64,000 bases of DNA from Mucilaginibacter gossypii. GTDB lineage: Bacteria; Bacteroidota; Bacteroidia; Sphingobacteriales; Sphingobacteriaceae. Numbering within the stretch: position 1 is the stretch's first letter; every line of letters begins with the position of its first letter. A program made the position numbers and the translations under genes. Where the stretch lies: positions 1 to 64,000 of the forward strand of contig NZ_FNCG01000020.1 in the NCBI RefSeq assembly GCF_900100945.1, in the 5' to 3' direction. This document shows positions 47,810-61,780 of this stretch, piece by piece. The notes under the pieces were generated by a model. The model was not told where the DNA came from. It saw only the letters and a list, made by a program, of their open reading frames with translations, and did not search any database.

Positions 47810-47908
47810 TGTTTTTTATTTGTGAATATCCTTAATTTATACCAGCGAACAAAATCTTAATAATAAAACAGAAACGTATAACTACCCGTTAAGCCTTAAA
47901 CATCACCC

Positions 47909-48139
47909 ATGAAAAAATTAACCATCCTTACATTTTTAGCTGCTTCAATAGCTTTTGCATCCTGTCATAGCGCCGATAAAAATAACCGCCAAAACGATAC
48001 CAGCGTGACCCAAAGTAGCGGCGGCCCTGCCGATTCAACAAAAACTTCAACAGCCCGAAACACCGACACTACAACTAATTCAGCAGACACCACTACGCTT
48101 GGTGCTGATACCGATTCGGCTGTGCATCCGGTGCATTAA
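47909..48139 (+). CDS. Very small Thr/Asp/Ser-rich lipoprotein
   Basis: 76 residues. The signal peptide ends in IAFASC, so Cys19 is probably acylated. The mature 58 residues are nearly all Thr, Asp, Ser, Ala and Asn, with a DTTT-type repeat and no hydrophobic core. It is probably a disordered surface or periplasmic peptide. Similar low-complexity lipoproteins occur in this order but no function is known. Confidence 0.65.
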   Translation: MKKLTILTFLAASIAFASCHSADKNNRQNDTSVTQSSGGPADSTKTSTARNTDTTTNSADTTTLGADTDSAVHPVH

Positions 48140-48243
48140 TACCGGCTGATCACTATTTCTTTTGTTCATGATTAAACTAAGAATTAGCTGATCAGTCTAC
48201 CTTCAGGAGTTTGCTTTTTTGTTGCCTTTAACTTTTTTATTAA

Positions 48244-52464: not shown

Positions 52465-53510
52465 TATTCGGATTTTTTAAACGCGTTCCAGCCCTGGGCC
52501 TTCAATTCATGTACGGTACCGCTTTTAGTGATCAGGTTACAGCCGGCCGATGGTTCGGTGATGTAGCCGATGATGCTGATATCCATTTTAAATTTGATCT
52601 TATCATAATCGGCCTGCTTCACGGTAAACAATAATTCATAATCTTCCCCACCGCTGAGCGCGCAAATAGTAGGATCGAGGTTGAACTCACGGGCTGTTTC
52701 AAACGTCATCGGGTCGAGCGGGATCTTCTCTTCGTACAGGTTACACCCCTTGTTGCTTTGCTTACAGATATGTAATAACTCTGAAGCCAAACCATCAGAT
52801 ACGTCGATCATCGCGGTTGGTTTTACTTCGATGCTTTTCAGCAATTCCACCACATCCCGGCGGGCTTCGGGTTTTAACTGACGTTCCACGATGTAATCTT
52901 TTCCTTCCAGATCCGGCTGAATATTAGGATTTTCCAGGTAGATCAGCTTTTCCCGCTCCAGCAGTTGCAGGCCGGTATAAGCACCTCCCAAATCTCCGGA
53001 TACACAAATTAGGTCGCCTTCTTCGGCACCGTTACGGTACACAATGTCAGCTTCATCAGCATATCCGATAGAGGTTACGCTGATCACCAGTCCCTGCTTT
53101 GACGATGTTGTATCTCCGCCGATCAAATCCACATTATATTTTTCACAGGCGATATAAATCCCCTGGTAAAGCTCCTCAATGGCTTCGAGCGGAAATTTGC
53201 TCGACATGCCGATAGACACAGTAACCTGCGACGCTATTCCATTCATCGCATAAATGTCACTCAGGTTTACCTGTATCGCTTTGTAACCCAAATGCTTAAG
53301 CGGCGTGTACGCCAAATCAAAATGGATCCCTTCCAACAGCATATCCGTACTCACCAGCACTTTTTTACCAGCGAAATCAAGTACAGCTGCATCGTCGCCG
53401 ACTCCTTTTTTTGAGCTTTCGTTAGTAAGCTTAATATTTTTTGTAAGGTGACCGATAAGGCCAAATTCGCCAAGCTCCTCTAAATTGGTTCTATCCTGAT
53501 TTTCAAACAT
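52464..53510 (-). CDS. thiL: Thiamine-monophosphate kinase
   Basis: 348 residues, full length for ThiL. It phosphorylates thiamine monophosphate to thiamine diphosphate, the last step of de novo synthesis. The AIRS-like fold shows GDDAAVLD near 37-44, STDMLLEGIHFDL, LIGGDTTSSK, SGDLGGAYTGLQ and MIDVSDGLASEL. No TPP riboswitch was seen upstream; the start is preceded directly by a short family H palindrome. It is followed by a coupled membrane-protein gene. Confidence 0.95.
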   Translation of the reverse strand: MFENQDRTNLEELGEFGLIGHLTKNIKLTNESSKKGVGDDAAVLDFAGKKVLVSTDMLLEGIHFDLAYTPLKHLGYKAIQVNLSDIYAMNGIASQVTVSIGMSSKFPLEAIEELYQGIYIACEKYNVDLIGGDTTSSKQGLVISVTSIGYADEADIVYRNGAEEGDLICVSGDLGGAYTGLQLLEREKLIYLENPNIQPDLEGKDYIVERQLKPEARRDVVELLKSIEVKPTAMIDVSDGLASELLHICKQSNKGCNLYEEKIPLDPMTFETAREFNLDPTICALSGGEDYELLFTVKQADYDKIKFKMDISIIGYITEPSAGCNLITKSGTVHELKAQGWNAFKKSE

Positions 53511-53514
53511 ATTA

Positions 53515-53548
53515 GCCCCTCTAAATCTTCCCTAAAAGGGAGACTTTT
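53515..53548. repeat. Short palindrome family H, copy 2
   Basis: gcccctctaaatcttcccta followed by aaagggagactttt repeats the sequence at 2201-2234. It ends four bases from the thiL start codon. Confidence 0.75.
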
Positions 53549-53550
53549 AA

Positions 53551-53963
53551 ATTTACATTTTTATACATCTTAGGCCGCAACCCGCTTTACACCTTCCGCC
53601 GAAGGCGGGAAATTTTTTTTACACTTTTTTCTCACATACCAACCAAATCAGTTGACCATCGAAAAACGGACGACAAATATATTGACTCCAGCCTCCCTTC
53701 GGCTTTTATACTTTTTAACAACAATGTGGATAACCCAAGTTTTCGGGCCGCTACCTTTATACCTTATATCCGCCTTTGGCGGAAAATTTTTTTACGATTT
53801 TCAGCCTTTTTACAAGCAAGAAGGCACTTTTACACCAAAAATACCTTCAATTTAATTCCTCCCGGTTTTCCACAATTCCCCAGTTTATAACTTCCTGATC
53901 AAGGCCATCCAACCGATCAAAAAATCGGTGAAATCAACCCGTAATCGGTGTAGTCTCAAAGAA
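53551..53963. other. Gene-free A+T-rich region with two GC hairpins and DnaA-box matches
   Basis: About 410 bases between thiL and nadA. Two small GC stems, ccgccgaaggcgg (53596-53608) and ccgcctttggcgg (53770-53782), are each followed by a run of Ts. TGTGGATAA at 53725-53733 is the reverse of the perfect DnaA box TTATCCACA, and TTTTCCACA at 53866-53874 also fits TTWTNCACA. The open frame across it lacks protein character. Confidence 0.5.
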
Positions 53964-54962
53964 CTATAATCCCAGCTGCGCCGAAATCTCAAGCATGCGC
54001 TCAATCGGTTTTACTGCTTTTTCAATTATATGCTGTGGTACAGTTACCTCAGGTGTTTCATTTTTCAAACACAGGTATAACTTTTCCAGTGTGTTACGCT
54101 TCATGTGCGGGCAATCGTTGCATGCGCAGTTGTTATTTGGCGGTGCCGGAATAAATATTTTATCCGGGTTTTCCTTTTGCATCTGGTGTAAAATGCCCGA
54201 TTCTGTTGCTACTATAAATTCCTTGTCCTGGTGGCTACCGGCATATTTTAAAATTCCGGTTGTTGAACCAACATAATCGGCCATTTCCAATATAACATCC
54301 TCACATTCAGGATGTGCTAACAACTTTGCACCCGGATGGCGTTCTTTCAGTTTGGTGATCTTTTCTCTCGAAAATATCTCATGAACCATACAGGCCCCAT
54401 TCCACAATACCAGGTCTCGACCGGTTTTTTTGGCTACATACGCGCCAAGGTTTTTATCAGGTCCGAAAATGATCTTCTGATCCTTCGGTAAGCTCTCTAC
54501 AATCTGCACAGCGTTGCTTGATGTACAAACAATGTCAGTTAAAGCTTTCAATTCGGCCGTACAGTTTACATAAGTGATCACCAGGTGATCGGGATAGTTT
54601 TCCTTAAACTTTTTAAACAAGTGTGGCGGACAACTATCTGCTAATGAACAACCTGCCTTCATATCCGGCAGTAAAACCTTCTTGGTTGGCGACAGTATCT
54701 TGGCAGTTTCGGCCATGAAATGTACGCCTGCAAAAACAATGATATCGGCATCCGTTTTGGCGGCTTGTTGAGATAATCCCAAACTATCGCCAATGTAATC
54801 GGCAATATCCTGGATATCGCCATCCTGGTAATAGTGCGCCAGGATCACCGCATTTTTTTGCTTTTTTAATTTTTCAATTTCCGCGAAAAGATCAAGCGTC
54901 GGATCAATTTCTTCATCCACGTATCCTTTCAGATTTATTTCTTCGAAGGTATTCATTTCCAC
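53964..54962 (-). CDS. nadA: Quinolinate synthase
   Basis: 332 residues. NadA condenses iminoaspartate with dihydroxyacetone phosphate to quinolinate, the second step of de novo NAD synthesis. It uses an oxygen-sensitive [4Fe-4S] cluster; ligand-type cysteines are in [25 protein letters not shown] and [35 protein letters not shown] near 40-60 is the family signature. It is divergent from nadB across a 401-base region. Confidence 0.96.
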
Positions 54963-55363
54963 AATTCAATTAATAACAACTAATTTTTAAATTAAAAAGA
55001 ACTATTGTTTATTAGGGTGTTGGTAATGTGCAAAAGTCGGAGTAATTTTTGTTTTAAAAGTTAGTTTTCACAATTTATTAACACTTATAAACATTTATCC
55101 ACCAAAAAGCATGCTGATTTTTAGATAGGTATGACAATCAATTTTTATTTGAAAAAGTTTTATGTTAATATTTTCAGGGTTGACAAAATGTTAGCTTTAT
55201 GACTAAAGTGTCGTAAAAGTCGCTCAAAAAATATTGATATTCGACCTGAGAAAGGGAGTTATACACACTGTAAACTATTTTTCACTTTTTGTTTACATAA
55301 ACTTAACAGGTTATACAGCTGTTATTAACATTAGTACTACTTTTACACACATTCATCTAAAAT
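54963..55363. promoter_or_regulatory. nadA-nadB divergent control region with inverted repeat and DnaA-box matches
   Basis: A very A+T-rich 401 bases. TGTAAAC (55269-55275) and GTTTACA (55291-55297) form an inverted repeat with a 15-base spacer, a possible operator for both nad genes. TTATACACA (55259-55267) and TTTTACACA (55341-55349) both fit TTWTNCACA, and TTATCCACC (55095-55103) differs by one base. The region must hold both promoters. It may instead, or in addition, be part of a replication origin. Confidence 0.5.
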
Positions 55364-56956
55364 ATGACCCGAAATGTTGATTTCCTTGTAGTGGGTTCAG
55401 GGATAGCCGGATTAAGTTTTGCGCTCAAAGCCGCGAAGCATGGTAAGGTACTGATAGTTACAAAATCTAACGAAGACGAATCCAACACCAAATATGCCCA
55501 GGGGGGCGTTGCGGTGGTTGTGGATAAAAAAGAAGATTCTTTTGAAAAACACATCCAGGACACCTTAATAAGTGGCGACGGGCTTTGCGACCGCGAAGTT
55601 GTTGAAGCCGTTGTTAAGGAGGGTCCCGAGCGGATCAATGAGATTATTGATTACGGAACCAATTTCGACAAGACCAATGAGGGTGTTTATGACCTGGCTA
55701 AAGAGGGGGGACACTCCGAGTTTCGTGTGTTACATTACAAAGATGTAACCGGCTGGGAGATAGAGCGTTCGCTTTTAGAGGAAATTCATAAAAATCCTAA
55801 TATTGAGATACTTACGCATTATTTTGCTGTTGATTTAATAACGCAGCACCATTTGGGCGAGTTGGTAGGTAAATCAAGTACTGATATCACCTGTTTCGGG
55901 ATTTATGCGTTTAATACCGAAACTAAGATTGTAGAGAAGATCTTATCTAAAGTTACGGTAATGGCTGCTGGTGGTGCCGGACATATTTACGCGGTTACCA
56001 CAAATCCAACAATCGCTACTGGTGATGGTATTGCTATGGTTTATCGTGCTAAAGGTAAAGTACGTAATATGGAGTTCATGCAATTCCATCCAACAGCTTT
56101 GTATAATCCCGGCGAATATCCCTCTTTTCTGATATCTGAGGCTGTACGCGGTTTTGGCGGCGTGTTAAAGCGCACTAACGGTGAAGAGTTTATGCAAGAG
56201 TATGACGAGCGTAAATCTTTGGCACCCCGTGATATAACGGCAAGGGCTATTGATGCCGAGATCAAAAAATCGGGCGAAGACTTTGTTTATTTAGATGTAA
56301 GGCACCGCAGTAAAAAAGATATCCTGAACCATTTTCCTAATATTTATGCAAAATGCCTGGAGATTGGTATCGATATGACCAAGGATATGATTCCCGTTGC
56401 GCCGGCTTGTCATTATATGTGCGGCGGTATAATGGTTGATCATGTTGGGCAATCGTCTATATTAAGGTTGTATGCCTGCGGAGAATGTTCGTCAACAGGC
56501 CTGCATGGCGCTAATCGTTTGGCTTCAAATTCTTTATTGGAGGCGTTGGTTTTTGCACACAGGATCTACGAAGACGCAATTAAGAATTTCGAAAATAATG
56601 TAATCCCCGATAATATCCCGGATTGGGATGAGAAGGGGGTGCAGCTGTCAAACGAAGATATCCTGGTTACCCACAACGTACGCGAAATGCAGAAGCTGAT
56701 GAATGACTACGTAGGTATCGTTCGTTCGGATTTCAGGCTGGACAGGGCCTTACGCAGGTTGAAATTATTATACGAGGAAACTGAAGATTTCTATAAGAAA
56801 ACCAAGCTATCGGTTAAACTTTGCGAGCTGCGTAACCTGATCCAGGTATCGTTTATTGTCGTAAAATCGGCTATGTTGCGTAAGGAAAGCAGGGGATTAC
56901 ATTATACTACTGATTATCCAGAGCATGCTGAGCAGGTGCAAGATACGGTGTTTTAG
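55364..56956 (+). CDS. nadB: L-aspartate oxidase
   Basis: 530 residues. NadB oxidises aspartate to iminoaspartate for NadA, using FAD. The dinucleotide fold VVGSGIAGLSFAL starts at residue 10. TKYAQGGVAVV, HPTALYN, SLAPRDITARAID and GANRLASNSLLEALVFAHR are the typical fumarate reductase/aspartate oxidase motifs. The C-terminal helical domain is complete. It is divergently transcribed from nadA and followed by a REP-like palindrome and a tRNA gene. Confidence 0.96.
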   Translation: MTRNVDFLVVGSGIAGLSFALKAAKHGKVLIVTKSNEDESNTKYAQGGVAVVVDKKEDSFEKHIQDTLISGDGLCDREVVEAVVKEGPERINEIIDYGTNFDKTNEGVYDLAKEGGHSEFRVLHYKDVTGWEIERSLLEEIHKNPNIEILTHYFAVDLITQHHLGELVGKSSTDITCFGIYAFNTETKIVEKILSKVTVMAAGGAGHIYAVTTNPTIATGDGIAMVYRAKGKVRNMEFMQFHPTALYNPGEYPSFLISEAVRGFGGVLKRTNGEEFMQEYDERKSLAPRDITARAIDAEIKKSGEDFVYLDVRHRSKKDILNHFPNIYAKCLEIGIDMTKDMIPVAPACHYMCGGIMVDHVGQSSILRLYACGECSSTGLHGANRLASNSLLEALVFAHRIYEDAIKNFENNVIPDNIPDWDEKGVQLSNEDILVTHNVREMQKLMNDYVGIVRSDFRLDRALRRLKLLYEETEDFYKKTKLSVKLCELRNLIQVSFIVVKSAMLRKESRGLHYTTDYPEHAEQVQDTVF

Positions 56957-59371: not shown

Positions 59372-59486
59372 AGTTTTTAGGCGATATAAGCGATTTTTAT
59401 GTTTTTATGAGAAGTACTATTAAAAATTAAAAATAATTGATTTTAAAGGACTTTTTATAATTAATTAATTATCAGATATTTACGTT

Positions 59487-61349
59487 TTATCTCGATACAT
59501 GAACCATCAAAACTGAAATATCGGAGGGTGAAACGCCCGAAATTCTTGAAGCCTGGCCCAAAGTGCGTGGTTTTATCCTCATCAATTTTTCGCGTGCTTC
59601 TTTGGAGAGCGATACCAACGTGTGATAATCAAAATTTGGATTGATCTCGCGGTCTTCCATTTTTTTCATCCGGTCTACTATCTCCATCTCCTTGATGAAA
59701 TAACTCTCATATTTGATTTTTATTTCAGCCTGCTCAATAGTTTCTTTATCGTAGGCCGAAAGTAACTCGGCTAAAGGGGCGTCGGCTTTTTTAAGATCAT
59801 TAAAGGTTACCTGTGGGCGGCTCAGCAAATTGAATAGTTTGGTGCTTTGCGCAAGCGGACTCGTACCCAACTCTTCCATCAGGGTATTAACTGTTGATGG
59901 ATCGATGGACTTGCTTTTGGTATAAGCCACAATATCATCAGAGTTTTTTATCTTTTGATTTACTTTTTCTAAACGCTCGTCGCTGATCAATCCTAATTCA
60001 TGACCCATAGGAGAGAGCCTGATATCTGCATTATCCTGGCGCAATAACAGGCGATGTTCTGCCCTTGATGTAAACATGCGGTAAGGTTCTTCGGTACCTT
60101 TAGTTACCAGGTCATCTATTAAAACACCGATGTACGATTCTGCTCTTTTCAGGATCAATTCATGTTTATCATTAATTTTTTGGTGAGCGTTGATGCCTGC
60201 AATGAAGCCTTGAGACGCCGCTTCTTCGTAACCGGTAGTGCCGTTGATCTGGCCGGCGAAGTAAAGGTTGCTGATCTGTTTAGTTTCTAAGGTTAAACCT
60301 AATTGTGTAGGAGGGAAGAAATCGTACTCAATGGCGTAACCCGGCCTGAACATTTTAGCGTTCTCAAAACCCGGAATCTTGGTGAGTGCTTTGTATTGTA
60401 CATCCTCAGGCAAGGAGGTGGAGAAACCATTTACGTAGATCTCAACAGTATTTAAACCTTCCGGTTCAACAAAAATCTGGTGGCGATCTCGCTCGGCAAA
60501 CCTGTTAATTTTATCTTCAATTGAAGGGCAATAACGGGGACCTAAACCTTTGATCCGACCGGTAAACATCGGTGATCTTTCAAAGCCTTCTTTCAACGTT
60601 TCGTGTACATCGGTATTGGTATAGGTGATCCAGCAGCAGCGCTGTTCTTCTATACAAGGTACATCGGTAAAGGAAAATTTGCCTCTTACTGGGTCGCCCC
60701 ACTGCTCTTCCATCAAGCTGTAGTTAAGGCTTCGGCCATCCACGCGGGGTGGGGTACCGGTCTTCATTCTACCTGCTTCAAAGCCCAACTCAACCAATTG
60801 CTCGGTTAAACCGGTAGCAGCTTTTTCACCTGTACGGCCTCCGCCAAATCTTTTTTCGCCTATATGGATCACGCCATTCAGGAAGGTTCCATTAGTTAAT
60901 ACAACAGCATCCGCTTCAATTTCGATACCGATAGAGGTACGAACACCTGCTACGGTATTGTTTTTTACAAGCAGAGAGGTTACGGTGTCCTGCCAAAAAT
61001 CAACATTAGGGGTGCGTTCTAATGATAAACGCCACTCTTCGGCAAACCGCATACGGTCGCTTTGAGCACGCGGGCTCCACATTGCGGGGCCTTTTGATTG
61101 ATTAAGCATCCTGAACTGGATAGATGTTTTATCAGTTATAATGCCCGAATATCCACCCAAAGCATCTATCTCCCGCACTATTTGTCCCTTAGCAACACCA
61201 CCCATGGCGGGGTTACAACTCATCTGTGCAATGGTACCCATATTCATGGTTATCAGCAAAACTGATGAACCCAAATTAGCAGCGGCAGCGGCAGCTTCAC
61301 AGCCTGCGTGCCCGGCACCTACTACTATTACATTATATTTCTTAAACAT
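59487..61349 (-). CDS. mnmG: tRNA U34 carboxymethylaminomethyl synthase subunit MnmG (GidA)
   Basis: 620 residues, full length. With MnmE it installs the cmnm5 group on U34 of certain tRNAs using FAD, 5,10-methylene-THF and glycine. The FAD fold [12 protein letters not shown] starts at residue 10. [45 protein letters not shown] and the C-terminal helical domain ([18 protein letters not shown]) are present. The gene is often near oriC and parS in bacteria; here two parS-like sites lie just upstream. Confidence 0.97.
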
Positions 61350-61435
61350 TTTATCCTCCTTGTTCCACTTTTGGTAAGTCTTGAGTCGCAGATTTTAAGT
61401 ATTATGTTGACTTAATGGTTCTTCAATTCAAGATT

Positions 61436-61451
61436 TGTTCCACGTGGAACT
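61436..61451. promoter_or_regulatory. parS-like centromere site 1
   Basis: TGTTCCACGTGGAACT contains the perfect 14-bp palindrome GTTCCACGTGGAAC. This matches the ParB-binding parS class, whose Bacillus form is TGTTTCACGTGAAACA. It lies 87 bases upstream of the mnmG start. Confidence 0.75.
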
Positions 61452-61534
61452 TTAATTTTATTTTCGCCGATTTTCTCGTTGGCGCTTTTAACTTACTGCT
61501 TAGAATTTTAGACTTAGATACAAAATTACCTTAA

Positions 61535-61780
61535 TTAAACAGATGTTCCACGTGGAACTCTGAATAATGATATTAAAGCCACAAACCCCCAAACGCCCTC
61601 TAATACCACGAAAGGGTAGAAGTTTACTATGTATGATGCATAGCAACAGGTGCCTGCGCCAATAAGGTTTAAAAGGCTGTAAAGCTTGCTTTCGGTAGGT
61701 AGTTTCTTAGTTAAATTTAACAGAAACGCTATTAAAAGTATAATTACACCTATTGATGCTATAATATCCGATGCTTTCAT
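61535..61780 (-). CDS. CBU_0592-like small membrane protein
   Basis: 81 residues with hydrophobic spans near 3-22, 32-52 and 54-72; GAGTCCYASYIVNFYPFVVLEG matches the CBU_0592 family pattern. The start ATG at 61780 overlaps the stop of the ABC-F gene in TAATG, a sign of translational coupling, so the longer frame starting at 61813 is less likely. Function is unknown. A parS-like site is embedded in its last codons. Confidence 0.8.
   Translation of the reverse strand: MKASDIIASIGVIILLIAFLLNLTKKLPTESKLYSLLNLIGAGTCCYASYIVNFYPFVVLEGVWGFVALISLFRVPRGTSV
61544..61559. promoter_or_regulatory. parS-like centromere site 2
   Basis: This is the identical 16-mer TGTTCCACGTGGAACT, 108 bases from site 1. 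It lies inside the 3' end of the small membrane protein gene and encodes part of its last residues (VPRGT). Confidence 0.75.

Follow-up and report, generated by a model that had tools for sequence, protein, structure and literature searches.

The gene dnaA usually marks the bacterial replication origin, and parS sites often lie near oriC; both associations are common and neither is defining. To our knowledge, the origins of Bacteroidota are little worked out. The closest described arrangement is the basal unwinding system (BUS) of Bacillus subtilis, which consists, in the passages of PMC6669920 and PMC8287927 that deal with it, of DnaA-boxes 6/7 and DnaA-trios, and to which distal boxes deliver DnaA (PMC6669920). 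The rule given in the PMC8287927 passage asks for three or more N-A-N triplets at 0-16 b from a box that has at most two mismatches to TTATCCACA. Two Ori-Finder predictions also bear on the present locus. In Mariniflexile litorale, Ori-Finder 2022 placed oriC beside mnmG, at a distance from dnaA, according to the text of PMC11278836, whose figure legend labels oriC and ter the opposite way. In Pedobacter sp. Hv1, oriC was predicted at contig 12, 65,484-65,930 (447 b), in a passage that gives no flanking genes (PMC4683228).

We analysed a window of 64,000 b, positions 1-64000 of the 115,923-b contig C26 of a Mucilaginibacter genome (7.1 Mb in 45 contigs), and conclude that the gap separating nadA from the divergent nadB (54963-55363; gap B) is very probably the chromosomal replication origin, oriC. 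The conclusion was reached by computation: the skew switches there, boxes are enriched, the gap is conserved, parS is linked to it, dnaA is absent, and no other 400 b of the window are as unstable. The preliminary description had proposed an origin in gap B and in the gap between AIRS and nadA (gap A) together; because gap A is not conserved, the proposal is narrowed to gap B, for which skew, box density and the location of dnaA speak.

Like the B. subtilis BUS, as far as the cited passages describe it, gap B has two abutting 9-mers, a short spacer and repeated N-A-N triplets, with A+T-rich DNA beyond the triplets and distal boxes in the same gap; the 13 b that separate the outer box from the first triplet are the most common spacer length in the passage of PMC8287927. 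Unlike the BUS, gap B is not beside dnaA, Mucilaginibacter and Pedobacter have a degenerate inner box, only one of the four triplets is the consensus 5'-TAG-3', and the module is known here from sequence alone. The 447 b of the Pedobacter sp. Hv1 oriC is close to the 444-445 b of the nadA/nadB gap in five named Pedobacter loci, and by length and genus it is probably the homologous gap, the passage of PMC4683228 naming no neighbours. M. litorale, in the part of PMC11278836 that treats its oriC, likewise has a Bacteroidota origin away from dnaA, and mnmG is also close here, 4.1 kb from gap B and beside parS; it differs in that its oriC gap is at mnmG and not between nadA and nadB. Because these passages of PMC4683228 and PMC11278836 predict comparable origins, we place gap B within a known type of site, chromosomal oriC, of which it is a well-supported new example. 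No description of a nadA/nadB origin for Mucilaginibacter was found in the literature searched, and DoriC may well list one.

The cumulative G-C minimum of the 115,923-b contig fell at 54980, inside gap B, and an equally deep V appeared in 1.1% of trials in which 1-kb blocks were shuffled. A second local dip was seen at about 64 kb. Because the genome is a draft, skew was also sampled in five single-contig chromosomes of relatives (G013, G011, G153, G144 and G034), at 20 evenly spaced 20-kb stretches each, and fitted with a two-level square wave whose arms each had to span 30-70% of the genome, an approach that resolves to about 2.5% of the genome. The best change-point interval contained nadB in four of the five (G013, the nadB of which is 99% identical to that of the window, G011, G153 and G144), where it covered 0.98-0.02 of the genome from nadB. 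A change point at dnaA fitted worse than one at nadB in G013, G011 and G153 (dnaA at 0.171, 0.751 and 0.136, respectively); in G144 dnaA is 9 kb from nadB, and the two are inseparable at the resolution of the sampled skew. GC skew, which the preliminary description had named as a check and which was run here in part, thus points to gap B.

Against this stands G034, in which the best change point lay 0.03-0.07 from nadB and dnaA (0.067) fitted better than nadB. The fitted origin moves away from nadB in this genome because one stretch (C1:5120906-5140905; L080) has a skew of -0.059 in an arm expected to be positive, possibly an inversion or an acquired island; the local 20-kb skew minimum of G034 is nevertheless 13 b before nadB. 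When the limit on arm length was lifted, in three genomes, the best change points were 0.00 (G013), 0.05 (G034) and 0.10 (G011); nadB came second in G011, and it is the 30-70% arms that move the best change point there to nadB. What speaks most against an origin between nadA and nadB is the misfit of G034 together with the result for G011 without the arm limit. Local 20-kb minima were dropped as a general test, being too noisy because they fell between -400 and +25 of the nadB start in 9 of 20 same-genus regions and elsewhere in the other 11. Gene-strand bias was also dropped as support, as no leading-strand excess was found around 55 kb (18/35 ORFs on the left, 17/42 on the right). Two further single-contig genomes, G109 and G110, have records (C1 in each case) that seem to be cut inside nadB, because the match to nadB starts as late as residue 28 in the one and residue 93 in the other, near the record end; perhaps the record start was set at the skew minimum.

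The domain IV stretch of the genome's own DnaA, GGRDHSTV, resembles the usual one, so ordinary boxes are expected. The preliminary description listed four exact TTWTNCACA matches in the two gaps, at 53725, 53866, 55259 and 55341, and a near match at 55095. All of these are real, the last with one mismatch, but the exact matches number five, the one at 55027-55035 having been overlooked. Nor are there only three others in the window, as had been noted: 10 lie outside the two gaps, including those that flank the cluster at 53139, 55519 and 56551. The total of 15, against 7.84 expected, was reached in 2 of 100 shuffles; the motif is somewhat over-represented in the entire window. In dinucleotide shuffles, gap A had 2 matches against 0.10 expected (P 0.0035), gap B 3 exact matches against 0.17 (P 0.0005), and the two together 5 against 0.27, a count that none of 2000 shuffles equalled. 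Comparison gaps of the same genome, namely the other gaps of at least 60 b in the window and those in 18 further stretches, averaged 0.15 matches per kb (n=241, 59.8 kb), and four gaps in the genome sample, gaps A and B among them, held two or more. The shuffles and the 241-gap average therefore show a density above chance and not normal for gaps of such composition, an outcome that the preliminary description had left open. Its term A+T-rich suits gap B and is less apt for gap A (39.5% GC).

Gap A was ruled out as part of the origin core. It was 2% aligned in the 16 same-genus relatives outside the four closest, though both flanking genes align, and its two boxes are both kept in just the four closest of 20 (G017, G013, G027 and G031). 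Other features of this area include a dispersed repeat at 53511-53560, matched over 32-49 b at 86-94% identity in 10 other places of the genome, with one copy at 2199-2232 of the window. At 53595-53619 and again at 53769-53793 a short GC-rich palindrome precedes a T run (CCGCC..GGCGG-AAATTTTTTT); it is either terminator-like or another dispersed element.

Gap B, in contrast to gap A, was 94% aligned and on average 67% identical in the same 16 relatives, and measured about 401-414 b in all 20 of the same genus. The parS gap was 55% aligned, and the 115-b gap beside mnmG (59372-59486) was as conserved as gap B (99% aligned, 73% identical); the profile is uninformative for gaps between non-conserved genes, such as 47810-48243. 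Across 35 aligned gaps, six box-like sites had at most two mismatches in at least 75% of the gaps, equalled by 1 of 200 shuffled motifs, and four had at most one mismatch in at least half, equalled by none of 200. By the strictest count, one site had at most one mismatch in at least 75%, and 8 of 200 shuffled motifs did as well. Strict boxes fall to one or none in the gap of many relatives, and five Pedobacter loci have no strict box between -420 and nadB. The box inside nadB at 55519 is also kept, though it could equally reflect conserved coding (Val-Asp-Lys).

A candidate unwinding module is found on the minus strand of gap B (55035-55002), where TTTTGCACA and TTACCAACA abut and are followed by CCCT, the triplets AAT AAA CAA TAG and A+T-rich DNA. 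It conforms to the box, spacer and triplet pattern given in the passage of PMC8287927. By that pattern gap B holds 11 candidates from six boxes, A+T-rich DNA satisfying the triplet rule easily; the module at 55035-55002 accounts for the two candidates that rank highest in triplet number. In an alignment across six genus groups (20 sequences, groups weighted equally), the most conserved 12-mers were, in order, 55003-55014, 54968-54979 and 55012-55023, the first with a conservation of 0.910 against a gap mean of 0.618. What supports the candidate module, as judged from these alignments, is that the top-ranked candidate is also the most conserved stretch of the gap. In 6 Sphingobacterium loci the inner-box position reads TTTTCCACA, and in many Mucilaginibacter species the pair reads TTTTAAACA/TAACTAACA, which would fail the published limit of two because these have 3 and 4 mismatches to TTATCCACA.

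The module was anchored in 51 of 66 loci (wrongly so in L171, L156 and L160, and shifted in register in G024 and L145), and in the 15 unanchored loci the block is present with one or a few changes. A degenerate pattern of inner box and triplets matched its own genome perfectly only at gap B, which is so by construction; the next match had two mismatches, and the reversed pattern gave a similar number of weak matches. When the whole window was compared by blastn with seven nadA/nadB gaps of the Sphingobacterium group, three matches were obtained, in three of the seven gaps, all within 54965-55086. The conserved block stands 339-363 b from nadB in 13 of 14 non-Mucilaginibacter loci, in 6 of which nadA is 1.8-3.5 kb away; the block pattern missed L171 and matched further places in 7 of the 14. 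Five Sphingobacterium loci have the block 362-363 b from nadB and nadA 1.9-3.5 kb away. Gap B probably carries the widely distributed unwinding module.

We infer the following course for DnaA binding, unwinding at the module and firing in vivo. DnaA made from the distant dnaA gene would bind the conserved boxes of gap B, and on the minus strand the abutting pair at 55035-55018 would seed a DnaA filament. This filament would cross the 4-base spacer onto the triplets (55013-55002) and pull open the A+T-rich stretch that runs towards nadA. The plus-strand boxes at 55075, 55259, 55322 and 55341 may deliver more DnaA, as the distal boxes of B. subtilis do according to the passage of PMC6669920. Helicase would then be loaded, two forks would leave, one through nadA and one through nadB, and ParB, loaded on the two parS sites 6 kb away in the direction of nadB, would segregate the new origins.

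Table. Features of the probable origin region and its surroundings (window coordinates; counts out of 35 refer to aligned gaps)
Feature	Position	Strand	Remarks
AIRS/nadA gap (gap A), at most accessory	53511-53963	.	two exact boxes (53725 -, 53866 +), not conserved
DnaA-box match in gap A	53725-53733	-	TTATCCACA; exact TTWTNCACA
DnaA-box match in gap A	53866-53874	+	TTTTCCACA; exact TTWTNCACA
nadA (quinolinate synthase), left flank of probable origin	53964-54962	-	PF02445, 433 bits
Probable oriC core: nadA/nadB divergent intergenic gap (gap B)	54963-55363	.	401 b, 25.7% GC
Candidate A+T-rich unwinding element	54964-55013	.	least stable 50-mer of the gap (fourth in window); overlaps triplets
Four DnaA-trio-like triplets, AAT AAA CAA TAG, central A	55002-55013	-	
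4-base spacer CCCT, inner box to triplets	55014-55017	-	
DnaA-box-like 9-mer of candidate module, inner	55018-55026	-	TTACCAACA; 2 mismatches
DnaA box of candidate module, outer	55027-55035	-	TTTTGCACA; at most 2 mismatches to TTATNCACA in 32/35
Conserved DnaA-box-like site	55075-55083	+	TTATTAACA; at most 2 mismatches in 35/35, at most 1 in 21/35
Near box of the preliminary description	55095-55103	+	TTATCCACC; absent from the conserved sites
DnaA box	55259-55267	+	TTATACACA; exact TTWTNCACA; at most 1 mismatch in 21/35
Conserved DnaA-box-like site	55322-55330	+	TTATTAACA; at most 1 mismatch in 26/35
DnaA box, ends 14 b before nadB	55341-55349	+	TTTTACACA; exact TTWTNCACA; at most 1 mismatch in 30/35
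nadB (L-aspartate oxidase), right flank of probable origin	55364-56956	+	context + FAD_binding_2 / Succ_DH_flav_C
Exact box inside nadB	55519-55527	-	TTATCCACA; same place (+155) in 15/20 same-genus relatives
parS site 1	61436-61451	.	TGTTCCACGTGGAACT
parS site 2	61544-61559	.	TGTTCCACGTGGAACT

The parS-like pair of the preliminary description (61436 and 61544) is real, and the two sites, 6 kb from gap B, are the only parS of the genome at up to one mismatch. In all 20 same-genus relatives parS was found 5.9-8.2 kb from the nadB start, and in each of 12 genomes searched apart every parS 14-mer was less than 15 kb from nadB. An order-wide search found the motif in 121/121 genomes; among the matches listed, which cover 36 of the 121 (35 with nadB, G163 having no nadB match at the E-value used), parS was less than 20 kb from nadB and on the same contig in 35/35. 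These listed matches lay mostly 4-8 kb from nadB, those of G105 and G127 at 13-15 kb; parS was on the nadA side in G127 and G134.

We also compared 80 named loci, some of which are from the same genomes as the G-numbered set. Among the 52 with nadB identity of at least 70%, nadA was divergent upstream in 49, the other 3 having less than 250 b of upstream sequence, and parS was found in 44, downstream of nadB in 43 and on the nadA side in one (L143). Seven of the 8 without parS have less than 5.5 kb of downstream sequence, and L153 has 7.6 kb. Because the 28 loci with nadB identity of at most 63% show neither parS nor nadA in their flanks (some of which are very short), the nadA/nadB/parS arrangement looks specific to Sphingobacteriaceae. 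In L143, a 27,890-b contig of Mucilaginibacter sp. OK283, four parS lie 5.8-6.3 kb away on the nadA side, either through a local inversion or as a matter of assembly.

The location of dnaA, another check named in the preliminary description and run here in part, agreed with an origin away from this gene. In the present genome dnaA is not on the origin contig but on contig C41 (C41:349275-349760), and the three 20-kb stretches around it had mean skews of +0.037, +0.053 and +0.060, with no switch, and 0.05-0.15 boxes per kb. The genome's single ParB_N match (114076-114354) is also on C41, about 235 kb from dnaA. In the single- or two-contig Mucilaginibacter genomes examined, dnaA was 165 kb (G026) to 1.46 Mb (G002) from nadB, and in four complete genomes of the Pedobacter group g26 (G153, G116, G147 and G159) about 0.87-1.0 Mb, the values for G116 and G159 being based on rounded lengths. 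Among the six complete genomes of the Sphingobacterium group g25, dnaA was 9-11 kb from nadB in three (G144, G152 and G060; exact distances), and in G095, G117 and G136 dnaA and nadB are both near record ends.

Other readings of gap B have to be weighed against these data. Its conservation could reflect a bidirectional promoter and regulatory region for nadA and nadB, serving the control of NAD biosynthesis, with incidental box matches. The two genes belong to one pathway and both start at the gap, which must hold both promoters, and the short neighbouring gap 59372-59486 is similarly conserved. Promoters are surely present in gap B too, and the promoter and origin roles are compatible. As a full account, however, regulation is very unlikely: it leaves the skew minimum, the parS linkage and the near-constant length unexplained, gap A and the parS gap align far less well (2%, between two conserved genes, and 55%), and the block is held near nadB in 13 of 14 non-Mucilaginibacter loci. 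A nadA promoter is disfavoured as the cause of the block, whose spacing is maintained relative to nadB and not to nadA. A conserved leader RNA or small RNA in gap B, which a long conserved non-coding stretch might suggest, is scarcely credible. Rfam gave no match at E<=1, and the consensus fold of 15 sequences reached just -2.9 kcal/mol over 412 columns, with two-sided change in 0 of 15 pairs; a leader RNA was ruled out on the Rfam result and the weak fold.

The origin might also lie elsewhere near parS and mnmG, for example in 59372-59486 or 61350-61779, with gap B acting as a DnaA-binding reservoir like datA or DARS. The second skew dip at about 64 kb would suit such a position, as would the oriC next to mnmG predicted for Mariniflexile, of the Flavobacteriaceae (in the text of PMC11278836), and the least stable 100 b of the window (59392-59491); moreover, the skew of relatives resolves just to about 2.5% of the genome. 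We nevertheless consider this very unlikely, as the contig skew minimum is at 54980 and not in the parS/mnmG area, no TTWTNCACA match occurs between 56560 and 64000, and the box-rich conserved module sits in gap B. That the origin is instead at dnaA on C41, the default of much annotation, has in its favour the fit of G034 and the start of several complete records at dnaA. It appears extremely unlikely given the positive skew without a switch and the low box density around dnaA, the worse fit at dnaA in G013, G011 and G153, and the absence of parS around dnaA in a genome-wide search allowing up to one mismatch. No homology of gap B to plasmid origins was found in 72,556 plasmid records.

With gap B as oriC, the simplest reading of the distances is that nadA, nadB and parS remained beside the origin and dnaA departed from its neighbourhood in the lines of Mucilaginibacter and Pedobacter, the direction being taken without a tree. 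On balance, though with considerable reserve, we favour the following history for Sphingobacteriaceae: the origin has kept its place between nadA and nadB, parS lying a few kb off; dnaA, adjacent in Sphingobacterium, has left in Mucilaginibacter and Pedobacter; a single module of some 60 b forms the core and can be recognised across genera that share little other non-coding sequence; and several Sphingobacterium origin gaps have grown to 1.9-3.5 kb, apparently non-coding and partly tandem-repeated. This suggests that an origin can be separated from dnaA and yet keep parS nearby. Several complete records of the family start at dnaA, here not likely the origin. A 400-b origin with a 34-b module would provide the zero point for work on replichores, growth rate (peak-to-trough) and strand bias in Mucilaginibacter and Pedobacter; it could also serve as a target for DnaA assays beyond the usual model organisms and as a basis for building replicating vectors.

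The long gaps were seen in five Sphingobacterium loci (L178, L180, L181, L182 and L206; 1.9-3.5 kb, 24-28% GC), where the approximately 450 b adjoining nadB keep the module and boxes. An Rfam scan of the gaps in L182, L178 and L206 gave no match. The gap of L182 contains no ORF of at least 80 aa wholly inside and carries a 154-b tandem repeat in 2.2 copies. In L187 (Ca. Sphingobacterium stercoripullorum), 8 exact boxes occur in 1755 b, and the block of the unwinding module seems to be duplicated within one origin gap, at -1562 and -339 from nadB.
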